Shown: piece by piece, positions 6,401 to 26,601 of the stretch
How the letters are laid out: the number at the start of each line of letters is the position of its first letter
Position numbering within the stretch: the stretch's first letter is position 1
Assembly (NCBI GenBank): GCA_003583745.1
Contig: QXPY01000005.1
Span: 62,001-126,000 of the forward strand
DNA length: 64,000 nt
Reading direction: 5' to 3'
From: Rhodocyclales bacterium GT-UBC
GTDB taxonomy: Bacteria; Pseudomonadota; Gammaproteobacteria; Burkholderiales; Rhodocyclaceae
Notes under the pieces: model-generated
Databases searched by the model: none
Told to the model about the DNA's origin: nothing
The model's input: the letters and a program-made list of their open reading frames with translations, nothing else
Program-made: the position numbers and the translations under genes

Positions 6401-6531
6401 TCGCCTTGCGCGAAGCTGCAACCCAAAGCGAAACGCTCGGCCTCCTGCATTTGCTTCGGGCCGAACAAAACCGAATCATTCCACTGATTGCCAAGGCACT
6501 CCCCTCACCCGCCCCGTCGGAATCATCATGA
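3442..6531 (+). CDS. Membrane hybrid sensor histidine kinase with three PAS domains, REC and Hpt
   Basis: 1029 residues. Two hydrophobic segments (about 11-29 and 49-67) enclose a short, roughly 20-residue periplasmic loop. Then follow a coiled-coil linker, three PAS domains (about 105-220, 228-345, 350-465), a HisKA box with [14 protein letters not shown] near 513, an HATPase domain (N-box FLSNAVKF, G-boxes DTGIGI and GGTGLGL), a receiver with phosphoacceptor Asp in [13 protein letters not shown], and a C-terminal Hpt domain with the His in [11 protein letters not shown]. All phosphorelay residues are present. The loop is too small for a ligand domain, so sensing is probably by PAS domains. 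The stop overlaps the next start (ATGA), so the two kinases are co-translated. Confidence 0.93.
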
Positions 6532-9500: not shown

Positions 9501-11282
9501 AACATCAGTCACGAAATTCGCACCCCGATGAATGCCATCATGGGCCTGACCCACCTTGCGCAACGTGACGCCTGCAATCCGGAACAGCAAAAGCGGCTCG
9601 CCAAGGTCTCCGATGCCGCACAGCATCTGCTCTCCATCATCAATGACGTGCTGGATCTATCGAAAATCGAGGCAGGCAAGCTGACGCTCGAAAAACTGCC
9701 ATTCTCGCTGTCGTTGGTGTTTACGACAGCCCGCAACCTCATCCTGGAAAAGGCCGAAGCCAAGCACCTTGTCGTCGAGCAAGACATCGATCCAGCCCTG
9801 CCGCCCATGTTGTTCGGCGACCCGCTGCGGGTGCAGCAGATATTGCTCAATTTCCTCTCCAATGCCATCAAGTTCACCGAGCACGGGACGATCACCCTAT
9901 CCGCCAAGCTCTGCCAGGTAACCGACAACGACTTCATGGTGCGTTGCGAAGTCAGGGATACGGGAATCGGTGTCGCTCCCGAGGTTCAGGCTCGCCTGTT
10001 CAATCCCTTCGAACAAGCCGACACCTCGACTACTCGGCGCTTCGGCGGAACCGGACTGGGTCTGGCGATCAGCCGGCGGCTGGCCGAGGCGATGGATGGT
10101 TCGATCGGCGTCGACAGCGAATTGGGTCACGGCAGCACTTTCTGGTTTACCGCCCGATTCCGGCGCCCCGCCCAATCCTCGATCGCACCACTTGAACTGC
10201 GCCAAGACCCTGGCAACCATGAGGGTTTGCTCACCGATCTGCATGCCGGAGTCAGGGTCCTGCTAGCGGAAGACAATGAAATCAACGAAGAAGTCGCAAC
10301 CGATCTACTGCGCGGCGCCGGTTTGCAAGTTGATATTGCACGCGACGGACGTCAAGCCGTACGCATGTTTACCGAAAACCCGTACCAACTGATCCTGATG
10401 GACATGCAGATGCCGGTCATGGACGGCCTCGAAGCGACGCGCGAGATTCGCCTCCTGCCGGGAGGAGCAACTGTCCCGATTCTGGCAATGACGGCCAACG
10501 CCTTTGAAGAAGACCGCCAAAGTTGCCTGGCTGCAGGCATGAACGACCACGTTGCCAAACCGGTCAATCCCGCCATCCTCTTCAACGCGCTGGTCAAATG
10601 GCTTCCCAGCCCCAAAGCAGCACTTGCGCATACGCCCCCGCCAAATAAGGGAGTTCAGACGCCTCAAGCCTTGGAAGAACAGGCTCAGCGTGACGCACTC
10701 ATCCGTATCCCAGGGCTCGATGCCAACTTTGGCCTGCAGTCGGTCCGCGGTCGCCTCAGTAGCTATTGCCGCCTGCTCGGAAAATTCACCACCACCCACA
10801 ATGAGGATTTTGCCCAGATTCGCCAACACCTGGGCGCAATCCAAAACGCCGATGCACGCCGCCTGGCTCACTCGATGAAGGGCGCGGCAGGCACCTTGGG
10901 CGCGACCGATGTCCAGAAAAAAGCTGCCATATTGGAAGCGGCAATTCGCGATGAACTACCGATGGCGGCGATCGAGTCCTGTTTGATCGACTGTGCGCAA
11001 AGCTACGAACAGCTTTGCACCGATCTGGCCCCGGTCCTGAACATTCAGGAGGTTCCTGCAAATAGCGCAACCGCACCAGCCATCGACAGTACCGCCCGCT
11101 TCAGTTTGCTCAACGATTTCCGCATCCATTTGCGTAGTGGCGATATCGTCTGCCTCAGCCTGCTCAATCGCAACTCGGGCGCACTTCGCGAAATCCTGGG
11201 CAGCGAATTCAAAGCATTCGAATCGGCAGTCAACGACTTCGATTTCGAGACAGCCCTAAGTCTTCTCGGTAATTTGAGATAG
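6528..11282 (+). CDS. Cytosolic hybrid histidine kinase with four CBS motifs, PAS/GAF array, REC and Hpt
   Basis: 1584 residues with no obvious membrane segment. The first ~270 residues contain four CBS-type repeats (beginning near 12, 75, 142 and 205), i.e. two Bateman modules, which usually bind adenine nucleotides. Then come a PAS domain (~300-420), a GAF domain (~430-575), three further PAS domains (~590-950), HisKA with [14 protein letters not shown] (~1000), HATPase ([21 protein letters not shown]), a receiver ([13 protein letters not shown]), an Hpt domain with [11 protein letters not shown] (~1447), and about 90 further unassigned residues. The C-terminal half closely resembles the preceding kinase, suggesting duplication followed by exchange of input domains. 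Starts within the stop of that gene (ATGA). Confidence 0.92.
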
Positions 11283-11302: not shown

Positions 11303-12196
11303 TCAGGAAAGTCGAATCACAGCCTTCACTTCGTTACCGCGACCGAGGTATTCCAGGCTGTCGAAACTGATCATGCGCGACATGGCGATACCCCGTCCAT
11401 GGGTATCGAAAGCCCGTTCCGGACTCATCTCGAGATAGGCCTGCCAATCGAAACCCTGACCTTGGTCGCGAATAATGAATACCAATTCGTCGGGCGTCCG
11501 TTCAATCAACAACTCCGCCTGCCTGAGTCCCAACTCGCTGGATAGCAACAAGCGGGCAATCTCGTCATGGAGACACCCGGCATCGATCAGACGGGTTTTT
11601 TCGGCGTAGCCGATTCCCAAATTGCCATGCTCCACTGCGTTGAGCATCAGCTCCGACAAACCGAGTACGACACGCCCGGGGTCCGGCGCGGCCTTGGCAG
11701 CCAAGGCTGCCAGATTGCGTGCCTCGTCGGGACTGCGGAAAAGAAAACGCGCCTGCTGCAAACAGGAAAGCGTACTGCTCTGTCGCTGGACCTCCGCCTC
11801 CAACTCGCGATGACCCCGGTAGTCACGCGTTGCTGCAGAAACAATGGCCAACAACGTATCGGCCGAAAACGGCTTGGTCAGATAATAGTATGCCCCCGCC
11901 CGCAAGCCTTCCAGTACGTCGGAATCTGCCGTCATGCCGGTTTGCATGATGACGGGCACATGCATCATGTCGGGCCGCATTTTGACCCGTCGGAGAATCT
12001 CGATACCGTCCATGTCCGGCATCATCCGATCGAGCAAAATCGCATCAAAACGCTCCGGCGTCGCATCAATCAAACGCCACGCAGCTTCACCCGACTCCGC
12101 CTCAACCACGGCATACCCGTCTTCGGTCAGGTTTTCCGCCAGCGTCTCACGACCGATCGGCTCATCATCCACTACCAGAACACATGTTTGCGTCAA
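11303..12196 (-). CDS. Response regulator with C-terminal anti-sigma-type HATPase domain
   Basis: 297 residues. The receiver domain (1-120) has DD at 10-11, phosphoacceptor Asp56 in LLDRMMPDMDG and the Lys of LTKPF. The C-terminal domain (about 160-297) is a small GHKL ATPase of the RsbW/SpoIIAB-like type, with an N-box around ELMLNAVEHGN and a G1 box around DQGQGFD, but without a HisKA domain. Such ATPases usually act as Ser/Thr kinases or switches on STAS proteins rather than as histidine kinases. The likely start is a TTG at 12196, supported by a GGAG site 7-8 bases upstream; no in-frame ATG is available. Convergent with the CBS kinase, so it probably belongs to the same signalling locus. 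Confidence 0.88.
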   Translation of the reverse strand: MTQTCVLVVDDEPIGRETLAENLTEDGYAVVEAESGEAAWRLIDATPERFDAILLDRMMPDMDGIEILRRVKMRPDMMHVPVIMQTGMTADSDVLEGLRAGAYYYLTKPFSADTLLAIVSAATRDYRGHRELEAEVQRQSSTLSCLQQARFLFRSPDEARNLAALAAKAAPDPGRVVLGLSELMLNAVEHGNLGIGYAEKTRLIDAGCLHDEIARLLLSSELGLRQAELLIERTPDELVFIIRDQGQGFDWQAYLEMSPERAFDTHGRGIAMSRMISFDSLEYLGRGNEVKAVIRLS

Positions 12197-12307
12197 AGCC
12201 GCTTCTCCATAAAGCCCTTATCCGGGACAAGGCGAATATGGACGCAAGACTATCCTATTTCAGGAAATTGAGATATGGACCAAAGTCCAACCCACCTCCC
12301 AGGCGGA

Positions 12308-13531
12308 TCAGCCGGTCGTCCTCTCCGCCAACCAGGCGAGAACCCCCTCGGCAGCGGCCCGGCCGGTTGCCAGGCAAGCAGTCAGGAGATAACCGCCTGT
12401 AGGGGCCTCCCAATCGAGCATTTCGCCGGCCGCAAACACGCCGGGCATGGCACGCAACATCAGGCGCTCGTCCAACGCCGAGAACTTCAAGCCCCCCGCC
12501 GTGCTGATCGCCTCCGCGAGCGGGCGCGGCGCTACGATAGGCAAAGGCAATGATTTAATCGCGCCAGCCAGGCTGACGGGTGACTCGATGACTTCTCGAG
12601 TGCATAGTTCGCGCAGCAAACCGGCTTTGGCACCTTCGATGCCGGCCCGACGCCGCAAATGGTTGGCCAGAGAATCGCGCCCACGCGGCCGCGACAACTC
12701 TTCAAGCAATTTTTCCGGTGACCGCCCCGGCGCGAGATCCAGCGACAAGCTTGCCTGGCCTTCCCGTTCCAGTTGCTCACGCAAAGCGGCGGAAACGGCA
12801 TAGATCAGGCCCCCTTCTACACCGCTCGCCGTAATGTTGAACTCTCCTTGCTGGCGCAAACCAGCAATGCTGGCAATGACCGGTTTGATCGGCTGGCCGG
12901 CATAGCGCTCACTGAAATACGCCGACCAGGCGACATTGAAACCACAATTGGCCGGCTTGAGCGTGGCCACCTCGGCCCCTCGCCCGGCCAACAAAGGAAC
13001 CCAAGCGCCGTTCGAGCCGAGCTGAGGCCAGCTGCCCCCTCCCAATGCCAGAACAACCGCATCGGCATCAACTGAACGTGTGCCCTCCGGGGTCGAAAAA
13101 CACCAGGCCGCCTGGTCTGCCGACCAGCCGTTCCAACGATGGCGAACGGCAAATTGCACCCGATTTTGCCGTAAGCGATGCAACCACGCGCGCAACAAGG
13201 GAGCCGCCTTCATCTCACGCGGGAAAACCCGCCCCGAAGTCCCGACAAAGGTTTCGATTCCCAGGCCATGAATCCAGGCACGCACTTCGGCAGCACCAAA
13301 ACGGCTCAGCCACGGCGCCAGAATGTCGGCTCGTTCGCCATAGCGTCCGACGAAATTGGCCTGAGGTTCGCTGTGCGTGATATTCATGCCCCCCTTACCC
13401 GCCATCAGGAACTTTCTCCCGACCGACGGCATGGCGTCGAACACGGTAACCGATATTCCGGGTTCGGCAGACAAAACCTCGGCCGCCATCAATCCGGCCG
13501 GTCCCCCGCCGATAACGGCGATTCGCGCCAT
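12308..13531 (-). CDS. HI0933/YhiN-like FAD-dependent flavoprotein
   Basis: 407 residues. The N-terminus carries a dinucleotide-binding Rossmann motif (GGGPAGLMAA, residues 8-17) and MAGKGGMNITHS near 42, typical of the HI0933-like/TIGR03862 flavoprotein family. The C-terminus has the matching FAD segment VFAAGEMLDWEAPTGGY. The family is widespread, annotated as NAD(P)/FAD-dependent oxidoreductase, and its physiological substrate is mostly unknown. Its ATG overlaps the stop of the upstream transglutaminase gene (TGATG), so it is probably translated as the last gene of the transglutaminase/ATP-grasp operon. Confidence 0.88.
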   Translation of the reverse strand: MARIAVIGGGPAGLMAAEVLSAEPGISVTVFDAMPSVGRKFLMAGKGGMNITHSEPQANFVGRYGERADILAPWLSRFGAAEVRAWIHGLGIETFVGTSGRVFPREMKAAPLLRAWLHRLRQNRVQFAVRHRWNGWSADQAAWCFSTPEGTRSVDADAVVLALGGGSWPQLGSNGAWVPLLAGRGAEVATLKPANCGFNVAWSAYFSERYAGQPIKPVIASIAGLRQQGEFNITASGVEGGLIYAVSAALREQLEREGQASLSLDLAPGRSPEKLLEELSRPRGRDSLANHLRRRAGIEGAKAGLLRELCTREVIESPVSLAGAIKSLPLPIVAPRPLAEAISTAGGLKFSALDERLMLRAMPGVFAAGEMLDWEAPTGGYLLTACLATGRAAAEGVLAWLAERTTG

Positions 13532-14532
13532 CAGCGATCCGCTCCGGTCGCTGCTTCGTCAGGTGCAGGCGAGGATTCGCTAGCCGATTCATCCGGCACG
13601 CCAAACTCAGCAAGGACAGTCTGTGCCTCGTCGAGCGGCGTGACGGTCACGGCGACATCGGGTTCGGCGCCGCCTCCTCCCAGGATAATGCCGCGTAACG
13701 GCGATATATCACCGAAATCGCGACCGATTGCCACCGTGATGTGTTCGGTATTGGGCAGCAAATTGTTGGTCGGATCGAAATCCACCCAACCTTCGTTAAA
13801 GCCAGGCGCATAGACCGACACCCAGGCATGCGATGCGTCTGCCCCGATCAGGCGCGGCTTGCCCGGCGGCGGGCGAGTCAGCAGGTAACCGCTGACATAG
13901 CGAGCCGACAGGCCGAGCGCCCGCATACAGGCAATCATCAAGTGAGCGAAGTCCTGACAGACCCCCCGCTTCTTTTCGAGCACTTCCATGACCGGGGTGG
14001 ACACCGTGGTGGCCTCCGGATCGAACTTGAATTCCTTGAATATCTTCGCCATCAGGGCCTGCGCCCCAATCAGGATTGGCGTTTGCGGCGGAAAGCAGTC
14101 GGCCGCGTAATCAGCCAGCTCATGCTTGACCCTGACGTGAGCGCTTTCAAACAAGTAGCGCATCGCATCCAGGTCTTCCGGCAAGGGGGGCGCCGCATCA
14201 TAGGCCAAGCGTTCCCGCACCGCTTCCCAAGGCAGCGAGCGCTCCAGATTCTCCGGCAGATGCGGCAGGACCTCGACTCGCATCGACGAGCTGATGCACA
14301 ACTGTTCATGCGGCGAATGAAAAGCAATCCAGGTCACAGGATTGCCGAAAGAGTCTTGACCATCGCGCCGCCAGGTCGGCGTCGGCTTGATCGTGATCTC
14401 CTGCTCTTCGATCCGTTGCCAGGCCAGAATCCGCGGCGAAAGGTGCAATTGCTGTTGCGACAGCGACACGGTACTGCCGTAGTCATAGGTCGTTTCGTGC
14501 AGCACGTGATAGCGAATGGGCTGTTTATCCAT
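13531..14532 (-). CDS. Transglutaminase-like cysteine peptidase family protein
   Basis: 333 residues. An N-terminal transglutaminase beta-strand domain (YHVLHETTYDYGSTVSLSQQ) is followed by a transglutaminase-like catalytic core. The Cys-His-Asp triad is visible: Cys in KKRGVCQDFAH, His in ASHAWVSVY and Asp in VDFDPTNN. Bacterial members of this type are predicted to cleave or form amide bonds in peptides. The start at 14532 follows the preceding gene's stop by 2 bases; a longer frame would begin inside that gene. The stop overlaps the next ATG. Third gene of a leftward operon with the DUF2126 transglutaminase and the ATP-grasp-alpha-E fusion. Substrate unknown. Confidence 0.9.
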   Translation of the reverse strand: MDKQPIRYHVLHETTYDYGSTVSLSQQQLHLSPRILAWQRIEEQEITIKPTPTWRRDGQDSFGNPVTWIAFHSPHEQLCISSSMRVEVLPHLPENLERSLPWEAVRERLAYDAAPPLPEDLDAMRYLFESAHVRVKHELADYAADCFPPQTPILIGAQALMAKIFKEFKFDPEATTVSTPVMEVLEKKRGVCQDFAHLMIACMRALGLSARYVSGYLLTRPPPGKPRLIGADASHAWVSVYAPGFNEGWVDFDPTNNLLPNTEHITVAIGRDFGDISPLRGIILGGGGAEPDVAVTVTPLDEAQTVLAEFGVPDESASESSPAPDEAATGADR

Positions 14533-14534
14533 AC

Positions 14535-17054
14535 TTACAAAGCCATCGTTTGCCGGCTGACATCGCCCACGTGGGTGAAATAGCGCATGCCCAGCCAATC
14601 GGAGAGCTGGATGGCCGCCCCATCGAGGTCTCGCAACACGGTAGCGAGTTCCTGACAGGCATCGTCAGCCCGTGCCATTCCGAATTCCAAATCCTCAAGC
14701 CGGCCAAGGTCGAAGGCGCGTAGCCGCTCCAGGACATCCGCCAGGCTGCTCTCGTTGTTTTCATCAAGCTCGCGTGCCATGCGGTCCAGATAGCGCGCCA
14801 GAACGCCTGCCTGGAACACCACACCATGTGGATTGCTGTCGTCAAAGACCAACAGATCGAGTACCGGCAGCATCTCGGGCAGACGCGAATAGCGCGAGCG
14901 ATAGGTGATGATCGAATCGGTCAATTCCAGTAGCCATTCCAGACAACCTGGACCACGGGTGGACGGCATGCTGAGGAAATTGGCGATGGCATTGGTCAGG
15001 AAAGAGAGGCGTTCTAGACGACGACCGATGATGAGGAAACGCCAGCCATCGTCGCGCGTCATGTTATCCATGGCAAAGCCGGTGAGCGATGACGACACGC
15101 CTAGCACCCGGTCAAGGAAGGCAATCGCCTCGGTCAACGTCGGATGGGTCTTCAAGGCGGCCTGCTGCTCACGCTGCAGACGGTTCAACGAATGCCAGTG
15201 ATCGAGCGACAAACGCTCGCGGACATGGGTGGCCGACCACATCAGGTTGCGGATGTTGCCGGCCAGGCTGCCCGGCTGGTTCGGGTCGTAGATCGCCTCG
15301 AGCAGCACGTGTTCGCTGCCTTCGGTGATCTCGGTATCCTCCTCGGGCTTGGGCAGGATACCGAGCAGCAGGGCCAGTTCCATTGCTGAGGCAACTGCCG
15401 GCGTCTTTTCACCGCCGGATTCGACGACGCGGCTGAGTGCGACGCGCAGCATGCGGGCGCTGTCGTCGAAACGTTCGGAATAGCGTCCCAGCCAGAAGAG
15501 GTTTTCAACCACCCGCGACGAGAGATTGGCCCCGGCCCGCACCAGGTCGCGCACACCGACCGAAGGCTTGAGCATGGTGAATTCGCTGACCGGGCCGTTG
15601 GTCAGCACCCAGGCATCCTTCGACGCGCCGCCACGCTGCATCGAGATGATGCGGGCATTGGCGCCGGTCGCGACGCGGGCCAAGCCGCCCGGCATGACCG
15701 AATAGCCATCGACCGACGACACGGCGTAGGCACGCAGGCCGACCGGTCGGGCCAGCAGGCGACGCTCGTGCGAACGGCTCCAGGTCGGCGCCTGCGACAG
15801 GTTAACCATTTCCTGGGCGACATAAGCGTGAGGCCGTGCTTCCATTCGGCGCAGCATTTCCGCCCGCGCCTCGCCCTTCAACTCATGGCCGAATACCGGG
15901 TCCATGCGCTGCGTCGGGTAAGCCGGCTTGATGACCAGGTCGTCAAAATTCTCGCGCACGTAATCAAGGGCCGGCTTTTCGCCGCACCACCAGGTGCCGA
16001 CCGAGGGCATCGCCAACTCCTCGCCCAGCAACTTGCGACAGATCGCCGGCAGGAAGCCCATCAACGCGCCGGAGGACAGCAGGCCGCTGCCCAGCGCATT
16101 GGCGATGACGACGCGGCCGGCCCGGGCGACATTGAGCAGGCCGGGAATGCCCAGCGCCGAGTCGCCGCGCAATTCGAGCGGGTCACAATAATCGTCATCC
16201 TGGCGACGCAGCACGACGTGCACCCGCTTCAGGCCGCGCAGGGTTTTCAGATACAGGGTTTCGCCGCGTACCGTCAGATCCTGCCCCTCGACCAGCGGGA
16301 AGCCAAGATAGCGCGCCAGATAGGCGTGTTCGAAATAGGTTTCGTTGTAGGGTCCCGGTGTCAGCAGCACGATATGCGGCTGCTCGTCGCCTTCGACTGG
16401 CGCCAGTGCATTCAGGCCATCCTGCTGGTCGCGGAAAAAATCCGCCAGGTGCTGGACGTGCAGATCGCGGAACATTTCCGGGAAAACGCGCGAGACGATC
16501 AACCGATTTTCCAGCGCGTAACCGGCCCCGGAGGGCGCCTGCGTCCGGTCGGCAATGACCCACCAGCGGCCGTCCGGCGAACGCGCCAGATCGACCGCAT
16601 ACTGGTGCAACCAGGTACCACCGGCCGGCTTGATTCCCTGGCAGGGCCAGAGATAGCCGTGCTGACCGTAAACCAATGCCGGCGGCAGCAAACCTTCGGC
16701 AAGTAATGTTTGCTCGCCGTAGAGATCGGCCAGGATCGCATTCAGCAGGGTAGCCCGCTGGGCCACGGCAGCCGAGACCTCGGCCCATTCTTCGGCCGAA
16801 ATGATCAGCGGTAGCGGATCGAGCGCCCACGGCCGGTCCGCCCCGCTGGGATCGGCATAGACGTTGTAGGTGACGCCGTTTTCCTGAATGCGGCGATCAA
16901 CGAAATCGAGACGCCGATGCATCTCGTCCGGCGCGACCGAATCGAGATGGATGAAGAACTGTCGCCAGTGTGGACGAACCGCTCCCTCCGCCGTGAGCAT
17001 TTCATCGTAGCGGCGAGAGCTGTTCGGGTAAATCGCGAGGAGTGTGCGGGCCAT
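14535..17054 (-). CDS. Fusion of circularly permuted type 2 ATP-grasp and alpha-E domains
   Basis: 839 residues. Residues ~1-490 match the circularly permuted ATP-grasp family (DUF404/DUF407), with TPGPYNETYFEH, the acidic motif RRQDDDYCDP and NALGSGLLSS. Residues ~510-830 match the alpha-helical alpha-E (DUF403) family, starting at SSRVVENLFWLGRYSER. In many bacteria, and in the second operon here (21905-24268), these are separate neighbouring genes. ATP-grasp enzymes of this class are predicted to be amidoligases that activate a carboxylate with ATP; alpha-E has no known activity. The gene lies 79 bases after the 1120-residue transglutaminase and 2 bases before the next one. Confidence 0.9.
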   Translation of the reverse strand: MARTLLAIYPNSSRRYDEMLTAEGAVRPHWRQFFIHLDSVAPDEMHRRLDFVDRRIQENGVTYNVYADPSGADRPWALDPLPLIISAEEWAEVSAAVAQRATLLNAILADLYGEQTLLAEGLLPPALVYGQHGYLWPCQGIKPAGGTWLHQYAVDLARSPDGRWWVIADRTQAPSGAGYALENRLIVSRVFPEMFRDLHVQHLADFFRDQQDGLNALAPVEGDEQPHIVLLTPGPYNETYFEHAYLARYLGFPLVEGQDLTVRGETLYLKTLRGLKRVHVVLRRQDDDYCDPLELRGDSALGIPGLLNVARAGRVVIANALGSGLLSSGALMGFLPAICRKLLGEELAMPSVGTWWCGEKPALDYVRENFDDLVIKPAYPTQRMDPVFGHELKGEARAEMLRRMEARPHAYVAQEMVNLSQAPTWSRSHERRLLARPVGLRAYAVSSVDGYSVMPGGLARVATGANARIISMQRGGASKDAWVLTNGPVSEFTMLKPSVGVRDLVRAGANLSSRVVENLFWLGRYSERFDDSARMLRVALSRVVESGGEKTPAVASAMELALLLGILPKPEEDTEITEGSEHVLLEAIYDPNQPGSLAGNIRNLMWSATHVRERLSLDHWHSLNRLQREQQAALKTHPTLTEAIAFLDRVLGVSSSLTGFAMDNMTRDDGWRFLIIGRRLERLSFLTNAIANFLSMPSTRGPGCLEWLLELTDSIITYRSRYSRLPEMLPVLDLLVFDDSNPHGVVFQAGVLARYLDRMARELDENNESSLADVLERLRAFDLGRLEDLEFGMARADDACQELATVLRDLDGAAIQLSDWLGMRYFTHVGDVSRQTMAL

Positions 17055-17133
17055 TCAGCCTGAGATACAGCGCGGGCAGGCCTTTCCGGCCCAATTTTGG
17101 CAGCCGGCCGGTCGCCACCCGCGTCGGGAGGGG

Positions 17134-20100
17134 TTAAAAACGGCGCAAGTCTAACGTAAACGGGTGCTCCGCGCTGACCTCGGGTATCCCGATCGACATC
17201 TTCCCTGGTGTGTGGCCGATTCTGAAGAAGCGGGCCAGACGGCGGCTTTCGGCCTCGAAAACGTTGACCGGGAAGGTGTCGAAACTGCGCCCCCCCGGGT
17301 GCGCCACGTGATACTGGCAGCCGCCGAGCGAACGTTGCATCCAGGTATCGACGATGTCGAACACCAGCGGCGCATGCACGCCGATCGTCGGATGCAGGCA
17401 GGAAGCCGGCTGCCAGGCACGATAACGGACGCCGGCGACGAATTCGCCGTTGATGCCGGTGTTCTGCAAGGGCACCGGCACGCCGTTGCAGGTCAGCACG
17501 TAGCGATCCGGCGCCATTCCCTTGACCTTGACCTGAACGCGCTCGACCGAGGAATCGACGTAACGCACCGTACCGCCGCCGCCCCCCTCTTCGCCCATCA
17601 CATGCCAGGGCTCCAGCGCATGGCGCAATTCGAACTCGATCCCCTTGACGGCGAAATCGCCGTATTTCGGGAAGCGGAATTCGAAATGCGGGGCGAACCA
17701 TTCGGCCTTGAACGGATAGCCGGCCGCCGTCATCTCTTCCATCACGTCGCAGAAATCCTGTTCGGCGTAGAAAGGCAGCATGAAACGGTCGTGCAGTTCG
17801 GTGCCCCAGCGGGCGAGACGAGCCGGCTCGTAGGGCTCTTCCCAGAAGCGGGCGATCATGGCCCGCAACAGCAACTGCTGAGCCAGCGACATGCGGGCGT
17901 GCGGCGGCATCTCGAAAGCACGCAATTCGAGCAGACCGAGACGGCCGGTCGGGCCATCCGGCGAGTAGAGCTTGTCGATGCAGAACTCGGCGCGGTGGGT
18001 ATTGCCGGTGACATCGGTCAGCAGGTTGCGCAGGATGCGGTCGATCAGCCAGGGTGGCACATGGCCGCCCGGTTGCGGAATCTGCTTGAAGGCGATTTCC
18101 AGCTCGTAGAGCGAATCGTTGCGCGCCTCATCGACGCGCGGCGCCTGGCTGGTCGGGCCGATGAACAGCCCGGAGAACAGGTAGGACAAACTGGGATGAT
18201 TGTGCCAGTAGGCGATCAGGCTCTTCAGCAGATCCGGCCGGCGCAGGAAGGGTGAATCGTTCGGGGTGGCCCCGCCGAGCACGAAATGGTTACCGCCCCC
18301 GGTACCGGTGTGGCGGCCATCGACCATGAACTTCTCGGTCGTCAGCCGGGTGTAGTGCGCGGCCTCGTACAGGTGCGTCGTCTGATCGACCAGTTGGCCC
18401 CAGCTCTTCGCCGGATGGATATTGACTTCGATGACGCCCGGATCGGGCGTCACGCGGAAATGTGTCAGACGCGGATCGGATGGCGGCTCGTAGCCTTCCA
18501 TGATCACCGGCAGGTTCATTTCCTCGGCGGTGGCTTCGACCGCGGCGACGATTTCCAGGTAGTCGTCGAGACGCTCGGTCGGCGGCATGAAAATGTACAG
18601 GCGGCCGTCGCGCGGTTCGGCACACATGGCCAGACGGGTGATCCAGGCCGCCGATTCCTTGAAGCCCGGAACGGTATCGGTCGGCTTCTCCCATGCTCGG
18701 CCCGGGCCGGCGCCCTCGCCGTAACCGCTGGCTGTCCCACTCCGCCGATCCTGCATCTGCGGCACACGGGCGCCGATATCGCCACTGACGCGGGCGCGCA
18801 GTGCCGCGTGGCTGGCCAGCGGATCGGTGGCCATTTCGGCGTCGGGCGGATTGACGTAGGGATAGTCGCTTTGTGCCGTCCAGGGTTGCGAATCGATCGG
18901 CAGACGGTAGCCCATGGCCGAATCGCCGGGGAACAGGTAGCACCGTTCGGCACGCAGGAACCACGGCCCGGTCTGCCATTCGCCGCGCAGGTTCTTCATG
19001 ATCGGCAGGACATGGCCGACGGTATAGGTCAGACCCTGGGTGAATACCTTCATCAGGCGGGCACGTTCGAGTTCGTCATCGACCCGCGAATCGAAGGGAT
19101 CGACGTTGCCCGGCAGGCGGCGCTCGCGCCACATGTAGTAGTAAGCGTCCTCGAAGGCCGGGAAGACGTGCTCGCCGGTGACGCCGAGCCGTTCTGCAAC
19201 CCGCTTCAGGAAACGCTCGGCCTGCTCGCTCGTCACGCCATAATTGGCACTTTCATTAGCGTACAGGGCCGGCGAGTTCCAGATCGGCTCGCCATCCTTG
19301 CGCCAGAAACAATTCAGGCTCCAGCGCGGCAATTGCTCGCCGGGGTACCACTTGCCCTGACCGAAATGCATCAGGCCGTTCGGGGCATATTTTTCGCGCA
19401 GGCGATGGAACAGGTCGGCAGCATAGATCCGCTTGGTCGGCCCCATGGCGGCAGTATTCCACTCGGCACCGTCCGGATTGTCGACCGCAACGAAGGTCGG
19501 CTCGCCGCCCTGGGTCAGGCGGACGTCGAGACTGCGCAAGGTATCGTCGATCTTGTGGCCGAGACCTTCGATCTCCAGCCATTGTTCATCGGTATACGGT
19601 TTGGTGACGCGCGGCGCTTCCCAAATGCGGGTCACGCTCATCGAATGGCCGAAATCGGTTTCGCATTCGTCCAGTCCGCCACTGACCGGCGCCGCCGAAG
19701 AAGGCTCCGGCGTGCAGGCAAGCGGAATATGACCCTCACCGGCAAACAGGCCCGAGGTCGGATCGAGACCGATCCAGCCGGCCCCCGGCAGATAGACCTC
19801 GCACCAGGCATGCAGGTCGGTGAAATCGGCCTCCGGACCGGAAGGACCGTCGAGTGACTTGACGTCGGCGGTGAGCTGGATCAGGTAGCCGGAAACAAAG
19901 CGGGCAGCCAGGCCAAGATGGCGCAATATCTGAACCAGTAGCCAGGCTGAATCGCGGCACGAACCGGAACGCTTGGTCAGCGACTCTTCCGGCGTCTGGA
20001 CACCGGGTTCCATCCGGATGGTGTAGCTGATGTCGCGCTGCAACTGGGCGTTGATCGCGACCAGGAAATCGACGCTGCGCACCGGCTCACGCGAAATGGC

Positions 20101-20496
20101 GGCAACGTATTTATCGAACAACGGCCCGCAATTCACCTTGTAGAGATAAGGGGCCAGTTCATGCCTTTCGCCGGCCTCGTAGGCGAAAGGAATATTCTCG
20201 GCGTGCGGCTCAAGGAAGAAATCGAAGGGGTTGATGACCGACATCTCGGCCACCATGTCCACCTCGACGGTAAATTCACGAGTTTTCTCCGGGAAGACCA
20301 GGCGCGCCAGGTAGTTGCCCTGCGGGTCTTGCTGCCAGTTGATGAAATGCTTTTCCGGCCCGATCTTCAGCGAATAGGAAAGGATACGGGTCCGTGAATG
20401 CGGACAGGGACGCAGGCGGATAACCTGCGGTCCAAGATTGATCAATCGGTCGTAGCTGTAACGGGTGACGTGATTAAGTGCAACGTGAATGGACAC
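17134..20496 (-). CDS. Large transglutaminase with C-terminal DUF2126
   Basis: 1120 residues. An N-terminal transglutaminase beta domain and catalytic core (about 1-290) carry the triad: Cys in [11 protein letters not shown], His in DLHAWCEVY and Asp in GLDPTSGL. The remainder (about 310-1110) is the long DUF2126 region that always accompanies this subfamily; part of it resembles glutamate-cysteine-ligase-like folds in published domain analyses. The start codon is a GTG at 20496, supported by a GGAG site 9 bases upstream. First gene of the operon, preceded by a sigma-54-like promoter and NtrC-like sites. The reaction is unknown; peptide-bond processing linked to the adjacent ATP-grasp ligase is an inference. 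Confidence 0.9.
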
Positions 20497-20533
20497 GACG
20501 ATTTGCTCCGGGCATAAAGACTAAGAAATTAAA

Positions 20534-20549
20534 AGCAAAAGCTGAACCA
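20534..20549 (-). promoter_or_regulatory. Candidate sigma-54 (-24/-12) promoter of the first transglutaminase operon
   Basis: Read on the minus strand the sequence is TGGTTCAGCTTTTGCT. It has the invariant GG (20548-20547) and GC (20536-20535) separated by exactly 10 bases, with the family's TTGC(A/T) at -12. The -24 element keeps TGG but lacks the consensus CACG. Transcription would start near 20523, leaving a ~27-base leader before the GTG at 20496. A single GG-N10-GC match can occur by chance; the NtrC-like sites upstream and a better match before the second operon strengthen the call. Confidence 0.5.
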
Positions 20550-20600
20550 CCCTCGACAAGCACCGAATCGCAGCACATCAACCTAACATGATGACATGGC

Positions 20601-20648
20601 GCACCAGTTCAAAGCCCAAGGCATGAACTAGTGCACCACAATGGGGCG
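20601..20648. promoter_or_regulatory. NtrC-like enhancer: inverted repeat plus near-consensus site
   Basis: 20632-20648 reads TGCACCACAATGGGGCG and fits the NtrC consensus TGCACCA-N3-TGGTGCA at 12 of 14 defined positions. Overlapping it, 20601-20611 (GCACCAGTTCA) and 20624-20634 (TGAACTAGTGC) form an inverted repeat with 10 of 11 bases paired and a 12-base gap. Both lie 50-115 bases upstream of the sigma-54-like promoter at 20534-20549, the usual enhancer distance. The rest of the 162-base gap (20497-20658) shows nothing else I can name. Confidence 0.45.
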
Positions 20649-20658
20649 TACGAAAGTA

Positions 20659-21786
20659 TTACTTCAACTTGGCGAGCGCTTCAGCAAGGTGCAACACCGT
20701 TCTTTCAATATCATGAAGCTTGTCGAGCCCGAACAGGCCGACCCGGAATGTCCGGTAGTCGGCCGGCTCGTCGCATTGCAACGGCACCCCGGCCGCCGTC
20801 TGCAGGCCTAGTCCGATGAATTTCTTGCCCGTCTGGATTTCCGGATCTTCGGTATAACTGACGACCACGCCCGGCGCCGCAAAGCCATCGGCAGCGACGC
20901 TCGGATAGCCCTGAGCGGCAAGCAAGGCGCGCACCCGGTCACCCAAGGCTTGCTGCTCGTCACGGATTTTCTCGAAACCGTAGCTTTCCATCTCCAGCAT
21001 GGTGTCGCGCAACTTGACCAGCGCATCGGTCGGCATCGTGGCGTGATAGGCATGACCACCGCCCTCGTAGGCTTCCATGATCTGCAGCCATTTCTTCAGG
21101 TCGCAGGCAAAACTGGTGCTGGTCGTCGCCTCGATCCGGGCCCGCGCCCGTTCGCCCAGCATCACCAGGGCGCCACAGGGAGAAGCGCTCCACCCCTTCT
21201 GCGGCGCACTGATCAGGACATCAACGCCAGCCGTCTCCATATCGACCCAGATGGCACCGGAAGCAATGCAGTCGAGCACGAACAAGCCATCCACTTCACG
21301 CACGGCATTAGCCACCGCGCGCACATAGTCGGGCGGCAAAATCATCCCGGAAGCCGTTTCAACATGCGGCGCGAAAACGACGGCCGGCTTTTCGCGGCGA
21401 ATGGTCGCCACCACCTCGTCAATCGGCGGCGGCGCAAATGGCGCCTGCGGCCGATCGGCAATCCGGCGCGCCTTGAGCACGATGCTTTCGGAAGGGATGC
21501 GTCCCATCTCGAAAATCTGCGTCCAGCGGAAGCTGAACCAGCCATTGCGGATGACCAGGCATTTCCGGTCGGTGGCGAACTGACGTGCCACGGCCTCCAT
21601 GCCGAACGTGCCGCTGCCCGGCACGACGATGGCGGCCTTGGCGTGATAAACCTGTTTGAGGATACGGGAAATGTCGCGCATGACGCCCTGGAAGGACTGC
21701 GACATGTGATTCAAAGCGCGGTCGGTATAGACCACAGAATATTCAAGCAAACCTTCAGGATCGACGGCGGGCAACAAACTGGACAT
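20659..21786 (-). CDS. Class V aminotransferase (alanine-glyoxylate/serine-pyruvate type)
   Basis: 375 residues. The fold-type I PLP signature is SAPQKGWSASPCG with the Schiff-base Lys; VPGSGTFGMEA near 62 is the phosphate-binding region and the PLP-contacting Asp is in VLDCIASGAIW. It resembles alanine/serine-glyoxylate aminotransferases and the PucG-like ureidoglycine-glyoxylate aminotransferase branch; the donor cannot be told from sequence alone. The start at 21786 has GGAG at a suitable distance; the frame extends further upstream into the alpha-E gene without family similarity. It lies between the two ATP-grasp/alpha-E operons on the same strand, 118 bases after the alpha-E gene, with no clear terminator between. 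Confidence 0.85.
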   Translation of the reverse strand: MSSLLPAVDPEGLLEYSVVYTDRALNHMSQSFQGVMRDISRILKQVYHAKAAIVVPGSGTFGMEAVARQFATDRKCLVIRNGWFSFRWTQIFEMGRIPSESIVLKARRIADRPQAPFAPPPIDEVVATIRREKPAVVFAPHVETASGMILPPDYVRAVANAVREVDGLFVLDCIASGAIWVDMETAGVDVLISAPQKGWSASPCGALVMLGERARARIEATTSTSFACDLKKWLQIMEAYEGGGHAYHATMPTDALVKLRDTMLEMESYGFEKIRDEQQALGDRVRALLAAQGYPSVAADGFAAPGVVVSYTEDPEIQTGKKFIGLGLQTAAGVPLQCDEPADYRTFRVGLFGLDKLHDIERTVLHLAEALAKLK

Positions 21787-21904
21787 GGGCAACTCCGGCA
21801 GGGATTGAATCGTCTGAAACGACGGACCCGTGCAGCATAACGCCAAGCTACACGGGTTCCAACCCTGCTCACCGGCCGTCGATGCTTCGCCGGCCGTTCC
21901 TGGT

Positions 21905-22852
21905 TCAGGCCGCTTCGGCCAGCGGCACCAGGAAGTCCTTGCTGATCCCATCACCCAGGATGTAGATGCGATCCATGAAGTCGGTCAGCCATTCGTGCAA
22001 GCCCTGGGCCAGAATATCCTCGACCCGGGCGTAATGCAGTTGTGCATGCAGCAGGCCGGCCTGGCGCTGGGTTTCGCCGGAATGTCGGTTGGCGATCAGC
22101 TCCAGATTCTTGACCACGCCATTCATGCAGAAATGCAACGAACGCGGCATGTCGTCACGCAGAATCAGCAGTTCGGCCACCCGTTCCGGCGTAATGACGT
22201 CGCGGTAAGCCTTGCGATAGACCTCGAAGGCCGAAACGGAGCGCAGCAAGGCCCCCCACTGATAGAAGTCGGTGGCACCTTCATCGCCATGCGGACGCAG
22301 CACGTGGTATTTGACGTCCAGGATGCGTGCCGTGTTGTCGGCCCGTTCGAGCAAGGTACCGAGCCGGATGAAATGGTAGGACTCATCCTGCAGCAGCGTG
22401 CCCAGCGTGGTTCCGCGCGACAGCGAGGAGCGCATCTTGACCCACTCGAAGAATTCGCCGATGCCGGCATTGAAGATTTCTTCAAAGGTCCGGTCGCGCG
22501 CTTCAAGCCAGGTGAAATTAAGCGTCTCCCACATCTCGGAGGTGACCGTGCCACGGACCGCATGCGCATTCTCGCGCGCCATGCGCAGGCAGCTGTAGAT
22601 CGACGAGTAGTTGTCGGCGTCCCGAACCATGAAGCGCAAGACATTCTCGGCATTGACCGTGTCGTACTTGGCGGAAAATGCTTCATCGAGACTGTTCAAG
22701 GTGATGATCGCACGCCAGTTCTGGTTGGCCGCTTCTTCCGACTGCGGCACCATCGACATTTGCCAGGTGACGTCGAGCAGGCGGGCCAGGTTCTCGGCCC
22801 GCTCGATATAGCGGGACATCCAGAAAAGGTGATCGGCAGTACGCGATAGCAT
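21905..22852 (-). CDS. Alpha-E domain protein (DUF403)
   Basis: 315 residues, almost entirely predicted helical, starting MLSRTADHLFWMSRYIER and matching the alpha-E family over its full length. It is homologous to the C-terminal half of the fusion at 14535-17054. No enzymatic motif is known for the family; it occurs almost always beside a circularly permuted ATP-grasp gene and a transglutaminase, so it is probably an obligate partner of the ligase. The ATG lies 3 bases after the stop of the ATP-grasp gene, so the two are co-translated. Confidence 0.9.
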   Translation of the reverse strand: MLSRTADHLFWMSRYIERAENLARLLDVTWQMSMVPQSEEAANQNWRAIITLNSLDEAFSAKYDTVNAENVLRFMVRDADNYSSIYSCLRMARENAHAVRGTVTSEMWETLNFTWLEARDRTFEEIFNAGIGEFFEWVKMRSSLSRGTTLGTLLQDESYHFIRLGTLLERADNTARILDVKYHVLRPHGDEGATDFYQWGALLRSVSAFEVYRKAYRDVITPERVAELLILRDDMPRSLHFCMNGVVKNLELIANRHSGETQRQAGLLHAQLHYARVEDILAQGLHEWLTDFMDRIYILGDGISKDFLVPLAEAA

Positions 22853-22855
22853 GTC

Positions 22856-24268
22856 TTAATCCTCCAGAACCCAAGTGTCTTTGGTACCGCCGCCCTGCGA
22901 CGAATTCACCACCAGCGAGCCCTTGGTCAGGGCAACCCGGGTCAGGCCGCCGGGCACCATGTTCACGCACTCGCCGGACGACAGCACGAAGGGGCGCAAG
23001 TCGAGATGGCGCGGCGCAATGCCTTCCTCGACAAAAGTCGGGCAGTTGGACAGGGCCAAGGTGGGCTGGCCGATGTAACCGTCAGGCTTGGCGATCAGCA
23101 ATTTGCGGAAATGCTCGATCTGCTCCTTGGTCGAGGCCGGACCGACCAGCATGCCGTAGCCGCCGGCACCATGGACTTCCTTGACGACCAGTTCGGGCAG
23201 ATGCGCCAGCACGTATTCGAGGTCGTCCTTCTTGCGACACATGTAGGTCGGCACGTTGTTCAGCTTCGGCTCTTCGCCGAGATAGAAGCGGATCATGTCC
23301 GGCACATAGGGGTAGATCGACTTGTCGTCGGCAACGCCGGTACCGATGGCATTGGCCAGGGTCACATTACCGGCCTGATAGGCGCGCAGGATACCCGGGA
23401 TGCCCAGCGTCGAATCGGCACGAAATGCCTGCGGGTCGAGATAGTCGTCATCGATCCGGCGATAGATCACATCGACGCGCTGCGGCCCTTGCGTCGTCTG
23501 CATGTAGACGACTTCATCCTTGACGAAGAGATCACGCCCCTCGACAAGTTCGACCCCCATCTGCTGCGCCAGGAAGGTGTGTTCGAAATAGGCGCTGTTG
23601 TAGGCGCCCGGCGTCAGCACCACAACCGTCGGGTTGCTGACCCCCTTCGGCGAAACGGCCCGCAGTTTTTCCAGCAGCATGTCCGGGTAATGCTGCACGG
23701 GAGCGACCTTGTGCTTGGCAAACAACTCGGGGAAGAGGCGCATCATCATCTTGCGATCTTCCAGCATGTAGGACACGCCGGAAGGGACGCGCAGATTGTC
23801 CTCGAGAACATAGAACTCGCCAGCCCCGGCCCGCACGATGTCGACGCCGGCAATATGGGCATAAATGCCGCCGGGCACATCGACCCCCTGCATCACCGGT
23901 CGGTACTGGGCATTGTTCAGCACCTGCTCGGCGGGAATCTTGCCTGCCTTGAGGATTTCCTGATTGTGATAGACGTCGTGCAGGAACATGTTCAAGGCCT
24001 TGACGCGCTGCCGCAGCCCGGACTGCAAGGCCTTCCATTCCGCCGACGGAATGATCCGGGGCACGATATCGAACGGAATCAGGCGCTCCTTGCCGGCCTC
24101 CTCGCCATACACCGCGAAGGTGATGCCAACCCGGTGAAAAGCCAGATCGGCCTCTGCTCGCTTGCGCGCAATGCGCTCGGGCGGGGTCGATTTGAGCCAG
24201 TCGTCGTAACGCTGGTAGTGAGCGCGGACGCCGCCGTTGGCGTCCATCATTTCGTTGTAGAAGTTCAT
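22856..24268 (-). CDS. Circularly permuted type 2 ATP-grasp protein
   Basis: 470 residues, full-length match to the DUF404/DUF407 ATP-grasp family: VPSGVSYMLEDRKMM, LTPGAYNSAYFEHTF, the acidic motif RRIDDDYLDP, LANAIGTGVADDK and VKEVHGAGGYGM. It is paralogous to the N-terminal half of the fusion protein at 14535-17054. Predicted to be an ATP-dependent amidoligase; substrate unknown. I chose the ATG at 24268 (MNFYNEMMDANGG) because an upstream extension to 24337 would run across the sigma-54-like promoter. Weak ribosome site. First gene of a two-gene operon with alpha-E. Confidence 0.9.
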   Translation of the reverse strand: MNFYNEMMDANGGVRAHYQRYDDWLKSTPPERIARKRAEADLAFHRVGITFAVYGEEAGKERLIPFDIVPRIIPSAEWKALQSGLRQRVKALNMFLHDVYHNQEILKAGKIPAEQVLNNAQYRPVMQGVDVPGGIYAHIAGVDIVRAGAGEFYVLEDNLRVPSGVSYMLEDRKMMMRLFPELFAKHKVAPVQHYPDMLLEKLRAVSPKGVSNPTVVVLTPGAYNSAYFEHTFLAQQMGVELVEGRDLFVKDEVVYMQTTQGPQRVDVIYRRIDDDYLDPQAFRADSTLGIPGILRAYQAGNVTLANAIGTGVADDKSIYPYVPDMIRFYLGEEPKLNNVPTYMCRKKDDLEYVLAHLPELVVKEVHGAGGYGMLVGPASTKEQIEHFRKLLIAKPDGYIGQPTLALSNCPTFVEEGIAPRHLDLRPFVLSSGECVNMVPGGLTRVALTKGSLVVNSSQGGGTKDTWVLED

Positions 24269-24307
24269 AGTGGACTCGTCGCTGAGGGATGCTCTCGAAT
24301 GGAATTC

Positions 24308-24323
24308 AGCAGGTTCCATGCCA
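24308..24323 (-). promoter_or_regulatory. Candidate sigma-54 promoter of the ATP-grasp/alpha-E operon
   Basis: On the minus strand the sequence is TGGCATGGAACCTGCT, close to the consensus TGGCACG-N4-TTGC(A/T): the GG (24322-24321) and GC (24310-24309) are exactly 10 bases apart, and 6 of 7 bases of the -24 element and 4 of 5 of the -12 element match. Transcription would start near 24297, about 29 bases before the ATG at 24268. This is the stronger of the two sigma-54-like sites in the window. Confidence 0.6.
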
Positions 24324-24375
24324 CAAGCAAAAATCACAACAAATCAGTGCATTAACCGAAGGCACAATCCAGGTG

Positions 24376-24412
24376 CGCACCGCTTCGGTGCAAATCAGGT
24401 CAAACTGGTGCA
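24376..24412. promoter_or_regulatory. Two NtrC-like sites upstream of the ATP-grasp/alpha-E operon
   Basis: 24376-24392 reads CGCACCGCTTCGGTGCA, a 17-base dyad matching TGCACCA-N3-TGGTGCA at 11 of 14 defined positions. A perfect right half site TGGTGCA follows at 24406-24412 with a poor left half. The pair sits 54-90 bases upstream of the -24 element at 24322, a standard NtrC enhancer position. The 204-base gap 24269-24472 otherwise holds only the promoter and the thiolase terminator. Confidence 0.45.
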
Positions 24413-24415
24413 AAT

Positions 24416-24448
24416 AAAAAACCCACCGGATCGCTCCGATGGGTTTTT
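24416..24448 (-). terminator. Rho-independent terminator of the thiolase gene
   Basis: The hairpin arms ACCCA/TGGGT and CGGA/TCCG close a short loop and are flanked by A/T runs (AAAAAA on the left, TTTTT on the right). Read leftward it ends in a T-rich tract about 25 bases beyond the bktB-like stop. The symmetry would let it work in both directions. Confidence 0.75.
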
Positions 24449-24472
24449 GTGCATCGCAACAGCCTGACTGGA

Positions 24473-25654
24473 TCAGGCGCGCTCGAAAATGACCGCGATC
24501 CCTTGGCCACCACCGATACACATCGTCACCAGGCAGTACTTGCCGCCGATCCGTTCCAGTTCGTACAGCGCCTTGGTGGCGATGAAGGCACCGGAGCAGC
24601 CAACCGGGTGACCCAGGGCGATGGCACCACCATTCGGGTTGGTCTTGGCCGGATCGAGGCCGAGCACCTTGGAAACCGACAGCGCCTGGGCGGCAAAGGC
24701 TTCGTTGGACTCGATGACATCCATCTGATCCAGCGTCAGACCAGCCTTCTTCAGGGCCAGTTTGGTCGCCGGAATCGGGCCTTCGCCCATGACGTCGTTC
24801 GGCACGCCGGCAACGGCGTAGGAAACCATGCGGGCCATCGCCTTGTAACCGGACTTGGCAGCCACATCTGCGGCAGCCAGCACGAAGAAGGCGGCACCAT
24901 CGTTGATGCCCGAAGCATTACCGGCCGTGACGGTACCGTCCTTCTTGAAGGCCGGCTTCATTTTGGCCAGGGCTTCGATGGTGGTACCACGCTTGACGTA
25001 CTCGTCGGTATCGAAGACCACTTCACCTTTCTTGGTCTGCTTGACGATCGGGAAAATCTGCGACTTGAAATGGCCTGCATCAATAGCCGCTGCAGCACGA
25101 CGCTGTGACTCGACCGCAAAGGCATCCTGCTCTTCACGGGTGATGCCGTGCTTGGCGGCCAGGTTTTCGGCGGTGATCCCCATATGACCAACGCCAAACG
25201 GGTCGGTCAGCACAGCCACCATGGAGTCGATGGCCTTGGTGTCGCCCATGCGGGCACCGCTACGCAGTGCCGGCATCAGGTAGGCGGCCTTGGACATGAC
25301 TTCAACGCCGCCGCCAATACCGATATCGGCATCGCCCAGCATGATGTTCTGGGCAGTGGTCACAATGCCTTGCAGACCGGAAGCACAGAGGCGGGAAACC
25401 TGCATCGCGACAGACTCCATCGGCAGACCAGCCTGGATGGAGGCAACGCGGGAGGCATAGGCATAACGGGAATCGGTCGGCATCGTCGTGCCAACGGTGA
25501 CATAACTGATTTGCTGGGGATCAACACCAGAACGGGAAACCGCTTCCTTCATCACGACGCCGGCCAGCTCGCTGGTTTCGAAGTCGGCCAGGGAACCACC
25601 GAAAGAACCGATAGCGGAACGAACTGCGCTCAGAACGACAACTTCTCTGCTCAT
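24473..25654 (-). CDS. bktB: Acetyl-CoA C-acyltransferase (beta-ketothiolase)
   Basis: 393 residues, the usual length of biosynthetic thiolases, which condense or cleave acyl-CoAs. The nucleophilic Cys is in SRLCASGLQG (~90), the general-base His in AIALGHPVGCSG (~350) and the second Cys in TMCIGGGQG (~380). The N-terminus (MSREVVVLSAVRSAIGSFGGS) and MCIGGGQGIAVIFE tail resemble BktB of Cupriavidus, a ketothiolase used in polyhydroxyalkanoate synthesis and 3-oxoacyl-CoA breakdown; phaA or a degradative thiolase is possible. The start at 25654 follows a strong AGGAGG site. It lies 23 bases after the CobD/CbiB-like gene and is followed by a terminator. Confidence 0.9.
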   Translation of the reverse strand: MSREVVVLSAVRSAIGSFGGSLADFETSELAGVVMKEAVSRSGVDPQQISYVTVGTTMPTDSRYAYASRVASIQAGLPMESVAMQVSRLCASGLQGIVTTAQNIMLGDADIGIGGGVEVMSKAAYLMPALRSGARMGDTKAIDSMVAVLTDPFGVGHMGITAENLAAKHGITREEQDAFAVESQRRAAAAIDAGHFKSQIFPIVKQTKKGEVVFDTDEYVKRGTTIEALAKMKPAFKKDGTVTAGNASGINDGAAFFVLAAADVAAKSGYKAMARMVSYAVAGVPNDVMGEGPIPATKLALKKAGLTLDQMDVIESNEAFAAQALSVSKVLGLDPAKTNPNGGAIALGHPVGCSGAFIATKALYELERIGGKYCLVTMCIGGGQGIAVIFERA

Positions 25655-25677
25655 GAAAACCTCCTGATAAGAATTAT

Positions 25678-26601
25678 TCAGCCCACCAGACTGGCAAGCC
25701 CCAACAAAAACAGCAACAACATCCATAGTACCGTGGCACGCCAGACCAGGCCGACGGCACTTTGCATGAAATCGGCATCCGCCTGATCCCCAACCCCCAA
25801 GGCAGCACGGTCGGTAACCTCCAACCCTTCCACCACAGGCATGCCAAGCTGGACGCCCAAGGCACCCGCACCAGCCGCCAGAACAATACCAAGGTCGCGA
25901 TCAGGCCACTGACTGGCCTGGGTACGCCAGCAATAAATGGCATCTTCGAAATCGCCAACGATGGCAAACGCCGACGCAGTTACCCGTAAAGGCAGCCAGT
26001 CGATGATACCGAAAATGAAGCGTGAGAACGCCGAGAAATGATCGTTATCGATCACATCTGTTTCCTGCCAGCGACGGCTGATTTCCAAGGACAAGCGGTA
26101 AAGCAAGGCTCCGCATGGCCCGGGCAACAAGACAAACCATAACAACACCGCAAACACATGCCGGTGCGAAGCCACCAGCGCCTGTTCGATAGCCAATCGC
26201 GCAACATCTTCCGCCCCGAGACCTTCGGTCGAACGCCCCAGCCACTGGGCCAGCAAGCTTCGAGCTTGCCCCCCATTACCTGCCCGCAAGGCAATCAGAA
26301 TTTCGCTGAAATGGTGGCTGAACTGACGAAAACCCATGGTCAGGTAAAGAACACCGACATTCAAAACCCATCCCAAGACAGGATGAACGGAATACAGCGT
26401 AATGTAGAGTCCACATACCGCCAGCACAGGCAGCAATACCGCAACGCACCACGCCACGACGCCGTGGCGGAACTCTCCGGCATTGAATCGAGACTCGATA
26501 AAATCAGCCCACACAGCAAGTGGCTCGGCCACGATGCGACGGTAATGCAAAGGCTGCAGCTGCTCGATGAGAAAAACTGCTATCAGCGAGAGAAGACTCA
26601 T
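25678..26601 (-). CDS. CobD/CbiB-family membrane protein (AmpE-like)
   Basis: 307 residues with several hydrophobic segments (near 1-12, 50-90, 148-170 and the C-terminus) and the motifs HPVLGWVLN, FSRFIFGIIDWLPLR and FEDAIYCWRTQA, found in the CobD/CbiB/AmpE superfamily. True CbiB makes adenosylcobinamide phosphate, but no other cobalamin gene is nearby, and stand-alone betaproteobacterial copies are usually called regulatory or AmpE-like proteins. Function is therefore open. It lies in a leftward run of genes between the Nudix gene and the thiolase. Confidence 0.75.
   Translation of the reverse strand: MSLLSLIAVFLIEQLQPLHYRRIVAEPLAVWADFIESRFNAGEFRHGVVAWCVAVLLPVLAVCGLYITLYSVHPVLGWVLNVGVLYLTMGFRQFSHHFSEILIALRAGNGGQARSLLAQWLGRSTEGLGAEDVARLAIEQALVASHRHVFAVLLWFVLLPGPCGALLYRLSLEISRRWQETDVIDNDHFSAFSRFIFGIIDWLPLRVTASAFAIVGDFEDAIYCWRTQASQWPDRDLGIVLAAGAGALGVQLGMPVVEGLEVTDRAALGVGDQADADFMQSAVGLVWRATVLWMLLLFLLGLASLVG

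Follow-up and report, generated by a model that had tools for sequence, protein, structure and literature searches.

Comparison with described amide-bond systems

Operons that combine genes for a circularly permuted (CP) ATP-grasp ligase, an alpha-E protein, a transglutaminase and the proteasome-like peptidase Anbu were reportedly described from genome analysis by Iyer et al. in 2009, who are also said to have linked a glutamine synthetase (GS)-like ligase to them. The system analysed here, encoded in a stretch of 64,000 nucleotides of Rhodocyclales bacterium GT-UBC (the window), is already known in outline, as a set of genes predicted to form and cut amide bonds. The operons of the window contain ligase, alpha-E and transglutaminase genes of the same families as the Anbu operons. 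They differ from them in that the genome yielded no Anbu match and in the presence of a fused ATP-grasp that is probably a pseudo-ligase, of a DUF2126 operon and of an intervening aminotransferase gene. We propose that the two operons of the window form one nitrogen-starvation-induced system that makes and breaks amide bonds and includes the pseudo-ligase, a reading to which we give an even chance.

In glutathionylspermidine synthetase/amidase (Gss), a ligase is joined to a papain-fold amidase, and both act on the same bond. No sequence alignment was detectable between the proteins of the window and Gss (E. coli, 2io7) or the peptide-spermidine ligases YgiC/YjfC, and residues were therefore mapped by motif spacing and fold. 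The likeness rests on fold and gene pairing and is an analogy only: the amidase candidate of the window is of the transglutaminase type, and the fused ATP-grasp is degenerate. A closer parallel in gene content is the cluster I35_5080-5083 of Burkholderia cenocepacia, with DUF404/407, DUF403, transglutaminase and large transglutaminase genes, as here (partial text of PMC5491218); that cluster has four genes, with no fusion gene named in this part of the source.

The sequence-only reading of this stretch had placed five genes in two leftward operons. This was confirmed: all five lie on the minus strand between 13531 and 24268 with strong Pfam matches, far above chance (Table 1). Operon A consists of the ligase and alpha-E genes, with 3 bases between them. 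Operon B encodes, in this order, a transglutaminase-DUF2126 protein, an ATP-grasp/alpha-E fusion and a second transglutaminase. The same reading described three families and a gap of 1.4 kb, which is right, but overlooked the aminotransferase gene in the gap and the fourth family, DUF2126.

A probable pseudo-ligase beside a live ATP-grasp ligase

The stand-alone ligase matches its profile and has an intact metal motif (E156-x-N158), lysine and glycine-rich loop; E, N, R and K are kept in all 82 of its relatives. The fusion also matches the profile and has the fold of a circularly permuted ATP-grasp. Both copies are full-length CP_ATPgrasp matches above the curated cut-off, and the core residues common to them include the TPG-N-YFEH and RR-DD-D stretches. 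Yet in the fusion of the window A168-x-R170-x-Q172 replaces E-x-N-x-R, and the glycine loop is lost. The ExN metal motif is lost in 96 of 96 fusions (the Glu is kept in 0/96 and, in a second set, in 0/24), and variable sequence takes the place of the glycine loop. The N position holds an Arg in every fusion of both sets (96/96 and 24/24), with a near-invariant Gln nearby. The putative glutathionylspermidine synthase of Methylobacillus flagellatus, whose structure is solved (3n6x), belongs to the same family as both domains, with E-values of 1.5e-220 to the ligase and 4.9e-91 to the fusion. It resembles the live ligase, whereas its metal and loop residues are lost in the fusion.

Since the metal-motif and nucleotide-loop residues are lost in every relative examined, the fused ATP-grasp/alpha-E protein is probably a conserved pseudo-ligase that serves as a helper and not as an additional enzyme. 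Because its Arg is invariant, the site appears to be under selection and not in decay. The fusion with this Arg is conserved across the sampled Proteobacteria and is present in an acidobacterium. The genome is that of a relative of Dechloromonas, and the nearest named fusion, from Dechloromonas denitrificans, is 92% identical. The stand-alone ATP-grasps fall into one clade and the fused ones into another (bipartition support 1.0), with a mean identity of 33% between the two, which does not support a recent tandem duplication. The fold search with alpha-E gave only middling helical matches. Annotated records label the fusion as another ATP-grasp protein, a label that invites the wrong assay. 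We found no description of it as a pseudo-enzyme in the literature searched, which leaves out most subscription journals and Iyer et al. 2009.

A putative second ligase and two transglutaminases

The predicted structure of DUF2126 was mediocre (predicted local distance difference test, pLDDT, of 71.5). In each of two fold searches, all 50 matches listed were of the GS family, including gamma-glutamylmethylamide synthetase, with weak scores. Comparison of the DUF2126 profile with the sequences of solved structures gave nothing meaningful. DUF2126 is thus a putative amidoligase with a GS fold, which we regard as likely but not proven; it has about 845 residues and is fused to a transglutaminase, against about 450 residues in the GS family. 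The system would then probably have one live ATP-grasp ligase plus one GS-like ligase, rather than two ATP-grasp ligases.

The two ATP-grasp bond-forming steps of the sequence-only reading are not supported, as the active site of the fused copy is degenerate, a finding that this reading had itself named as refuting. Its second ligase is probably real, but is the DUF2126 domain that it missed and not a second ATP-grasp. For the duplication, which it suggested might supply two steps or two substrates, the better reading is a live ligase with a pseudo-ligase beside it. Its two transglutaminases were borne out, with an intact Cys-His-Asp triad in both, at C180, H229 and D245 in the domain of the 1120-residue protein and at C192, H235 and D253 in the short protein of 333 residues. 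Each of the three residues is kept in 98 of 98 DUF2126-type proteins; among the 126 relatives of the short type, Cys is kept in 123, His in 124 and Asp in 126.

Distribution and co-occurrence of the two operons

The system is widespread. We found CP ATP-grasp proteins above the cut-off in 65 of 120 genomes of the order, each at least 90% complete (G110 and G111 being counted from fragments only), DUF2126 in 41 and the long fusion in 22. These sets are nested without exception, fusion within DUF2126 within ATP-grasp, with hypergeometric P of 1.8e-15 (DUF2126 in ATP-grasp) and 3.9e-13 (fusion in DUF2126), both inflated because kinship is ignored. The stand-alone ligase occurs in all 22 fusion-bearing genomes. 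In the phylum sample, CP ATP-grasp proteins above the cut-off are present in 115 of 199 genomes, and among the matches listed all 32 of fusion length are accompanied in their genomes by a second, stand-alone one.

We retrieved 80 loci with the fusion as a query; in 23 of them, the sequence fetched includes a stand-alone ligase, whole or in part. For the other 57 we searched 48 genomes and identified the ligase in 45, including one where it is in two pieces (G324) and one where an 829-residue open frame was counted by score (G323); the three without it are all metagenome-derived. The five genes form a single run in L034, L037, L039 and L058. The ligase/alpha-E pair was elsewhere in 14 close relatives, whose loci were selected for the lack of a visible ligase around the fusion. 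Hence, closeness varies while co-occurrence holds. That the two gene sets belong together, as the sequence-only reading supposed, agrees with their co-occurrence (22/22 and 45/48), their shared promoter type and the five-gene run of several relatives.

One genome of the order has three stand-alone ligases and a fusion; the fusion shares a contig with two of these ligases (L040, G027:C33). The fusions of L156 and L167, two records derived from metagenomes under the titles Bordetella parapertussis and Klebsiella pneumoniae, are 56% and 51% identical to that of the window; these names seem doubtful for such bins.

Promoters and probable nitrogen control

A sigma54-type promoter with an NtrC-like box stands at the head of each operon (Table 1), and ntrC and rpoN are present in this genome. 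To score sigma54 sites we used an ad hoc scale (maximum 11, high at 9 or more) with distance unconstrained within 300 bases upstream. High scores were found for 69 of 81 regions upstream of stand-alone ligases (7.6 in shuffles) and for 45 of 66 operon-leading DUF2126 genes (6.05 in shuffles), many of the latter coming from one clade and hence not being independent. They were also found for both DUF2126 genes that follow the aminotransferase (2/2), for one of 24 DUF2126 genes inside operons and for none of 24 control genes (thiolase 0/7, flavoprotein 0/17). NtrC boxes matching at least 10 of 12 positions occur in 40/81 ligase regions (shuffles 1.85) and upstream of 24/66 operon-leading DUF2126 genes (shuffles 1.35). 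Two Pseudomonas loci, L161 and L163, have a sigma54 score of 10. A simple scan for sigma70 promoters found none in 12000-25800, where shuffles give 3.4.

We infer that NtrC and sigma54 turn both operons on under nitrogen shortage. The I35_5080-5083 cluster of B. cenocepacia is under NtrC and sigma54 control, with loss of expression in their absence (partial text of PMC5491218), and published expression data are consistent with nitrogen control (PMC8050072 and the same part of PMC5491218). A correlation between these domains and urea metabolism in metagenomes is given in a portion of PMC3597751.

Apparent absence of Anbu

The earlier finding that the window lacks Anbu appears to hold genome-wide. 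A PF00227 search of the whole genome, estimated to be 100% complete, matched only HslV. This profile is insufficient alone, because it missed the Anbu of G101, which a query taken from a Dechloromonas genome found. Across 15 genomes, the Dechloromonas query gave four strong matches (its source G321, G006, G101 and G011) and three weak, short ones (G311, G316 and this genome). The match in this genome spans 26 residues (E-value 0.008) at the 3' terminus of the alpha-E gene but in a different reading frame; we rejected it as a gene remnant and read it as an overlap of the alpha-E gene. A first Anbu query, run without a positive control, had no match in this genome. That Anbu is present but overlooked is rejected by the PF00227 search together with the Dechloromonas query and its controls. 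Anbu co-occurs with the system in many relatives. Among the 14 close-relative loci, one related genome (L222) has Anbu after alpha-E, in place of the aminotransferase.

Proposed mechanism and alternatives

When nitrogen is short, NtrC and sigma54 would switch on both operons. The stand-alone ligase, with alpha-E, would phosphorylate the carboxylate of a peptide or amino acid and then couple an amine to it, and the GS-like DUF2126 domain would make a second, glutamyl-type amide. The papain-fold transglutaminases may cleave or transfer amide bonds, like the amidase of Gss. The alpha-E domain of the fusion and its remaining substrate pocket could hold the substrate or pass it to the live ligases, and the net outcome would be amine nitrogen parked or mobilised. 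From sequence we read the anatomy of the system, the loss of active-site residues, the co-occurrence and the promoters; the substrates, the role of the pseudo-ligase and the direction of the reaction we infer. That the fusion is an anciently fixed, non-catalytic partner of the live ATP-grasp and GS-like ligases, in a regulated amide-synthesis complex of one dead and two live ligases, we put forward tentatively, at slightly less than an even chance. If true, a pseudo-enzyme, a GS-like second ligase and a shared nitrogen-starvation promoter would guide the choice of the protein to assay, of the growth condition and of the deletions for metabolomics.

Some observations weigh against this proposal. 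In the first set of fusions the Lys is kept in 94 of 96, which speaks against an inactive fusion; in the second set 18 of 24 have another residue where the ATP-binding lysine would align, in a loose part of the alignment. Within the window both promoter motifs, with mismatches allowed, are about as common as by chance, and the weight therefore rests on the relatives. In a wider set, sigma54 sites precede three of four stand-alone ligases and 8 of 22 DUF2126 genes, the latter divided into 3/3 in the same order, 3/4 in the same class, 2/12 in other classes of the phylum and 0/3 on plasmids. Nitrogen control is hence a feature of the class and not of the system. The kept Lys, the full-length profile matches and the many core residues common to both copies would suit two working ATP-grasp ligases, for two bond-forming steps or two substrates, but the loss of E-x-N and of the glycine loop, with the loosely aligned non-Lys residues, makes this highly improbable. 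The fusion could also be active with an altered chemistry in which the invariant Arg and the near-invariant Gln replace the metal ligands, as in pseudokinases that catalyse another transfer. The kept Lys and an apparently selected Arg would fit; we find this very doubtful given the variable sequence in place of the glycine loop, which argues against ordinary nucleotide binding.

Two further alternatives concern the function of the whole. As proposed for the Anbu operon, ligases might tag proteins with a small peptide, and a peptidase might then take the tag off or degrade the tagged protein (partial texts of PMC6376114 and PMC5666114). The co-occurrence of Anbu in many relatives favours such tagging, but Anbu was not found in this genome, and YbAnbu had neither peptidase activity nor specific interaction with the operon proteins (in the same part of PMC6376114). 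The fold relatives of known function are, moreover, small-molecule or peptide-polyamine ligases (fold search; partial text of PMC12568646), and we consider tagging unlikely here. Alternatively, the transglutaminases might deamidate or transamidate Gln residues, freeing ammonia, with the ligases only making substrates, an idea also raised in PMC6376114 (partial text). Two nitrogen-starvation-type promoters and two transglutaminases with their triads are in line with ammonia scavenging. It is nonetheless quite unlikely, as ATP-costly ligases would be hard to explain and the fold relatives of the family form stable amides. We retain the starvation-induced system with a pseudo-ligase as our working proposal.

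Table 1. Features of the two operons and their surroundings (positions in the window).
Feature	Position	Strand	Details
Stand-alone CP_ATPgrasp_2 ligase	22856-24268	-	Operon A; 470 residues; Pfam E-value 1.6e-167
Alpha-E helical protein	21905-22852	-	Operon A; 315 residues; Pfam Alpha-E E-value 4e-99
Transglutaminase + DUF2126	17134-20496	-	Operon B; 1120 residues; DUF2126 (PF09899) 1350 bits
CP_ATPgrasp_2 + Alpha-E fusion	14535-17054	-	Operon B; 839 residues; E-values 5.6e-158 and 7e-65
Stand-alone transglutaminase-like protein	13531-14532	-	Operon B; 333 residues; Pfam E-value 3.1e-23
Class-V aminotransferase gene	20659-21786	-	PF00266 E-value 1.3e-7; lies in the 1.4 kb gap between operons
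Sigma54-type promoter GG-N10-GC, operon A	24308-24323	-	55 bases before ligase start
NtrC-like box TGCACC-N5-GGTGC, operon A	24377-24392	-	Score 11/12; no other exact match in the window
Second, weaker NtrC-like box, operon A	24362-24377	-	Abuts first box
Sigma54-type promoter TGGTTCAGCTTTTGCT, operon B	20534-20549	-	
NtrC-like box, operon B	20632-20648	-	10/12 positions
Second, weaker NtrC-like box, operon B	20560-20575	-	
Terminator hairpin	24417-24448	-	Inverted repeat; RNA fold -25.5 kcal/mol, z -4.9; U-run after stem

Neighbouring genes

The aminotransferase gene of the window has no NCBIfam model above its cut-off. Among the fetched loci, only the window and L033/L104 (D. denitrificans) have an aminotransferase between alpha-E and DUF2126. 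Its membership of the system is not supported, since the ligase/alpha-E pair stands without it in 14 of 14 close-relative loci fetched. In L095 an aminotransferase relative lies 6 kb away from alpha-E.

A BktB-type thiolase gene (24473-25651) precedes the ligase operon in the window and in 12 of 14 close-relative loci. The terminator hairpin, which a simple terminator scan did not pick up, lies downstream of this gene. Operon A probably has its own transcript start, because this terminator-like hairpin separates the two. At the other end, the last transglutaminase gene and a TIGR03862 flavoprotein gene (12308-13531) overlap, the stop of the former with the start of the latter. A relative of the flavoprotein gene is directly downstream in 18 of 80 fusion loci, whose fusions are 82-92% identical to that of the window. 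Adjoining the system, the list of open reading frames has a sensor-kinase-like frame of 1584 residues (6528-11282, plus strand) facing a response-regulator-like frame (11303-12196). In a Caballeronia plasmid, the alpha-E and DUF2126-type genes flank a gene of the other strand (L206:1226-2287) that is annotated as a zinc-binding metallopeptidase.

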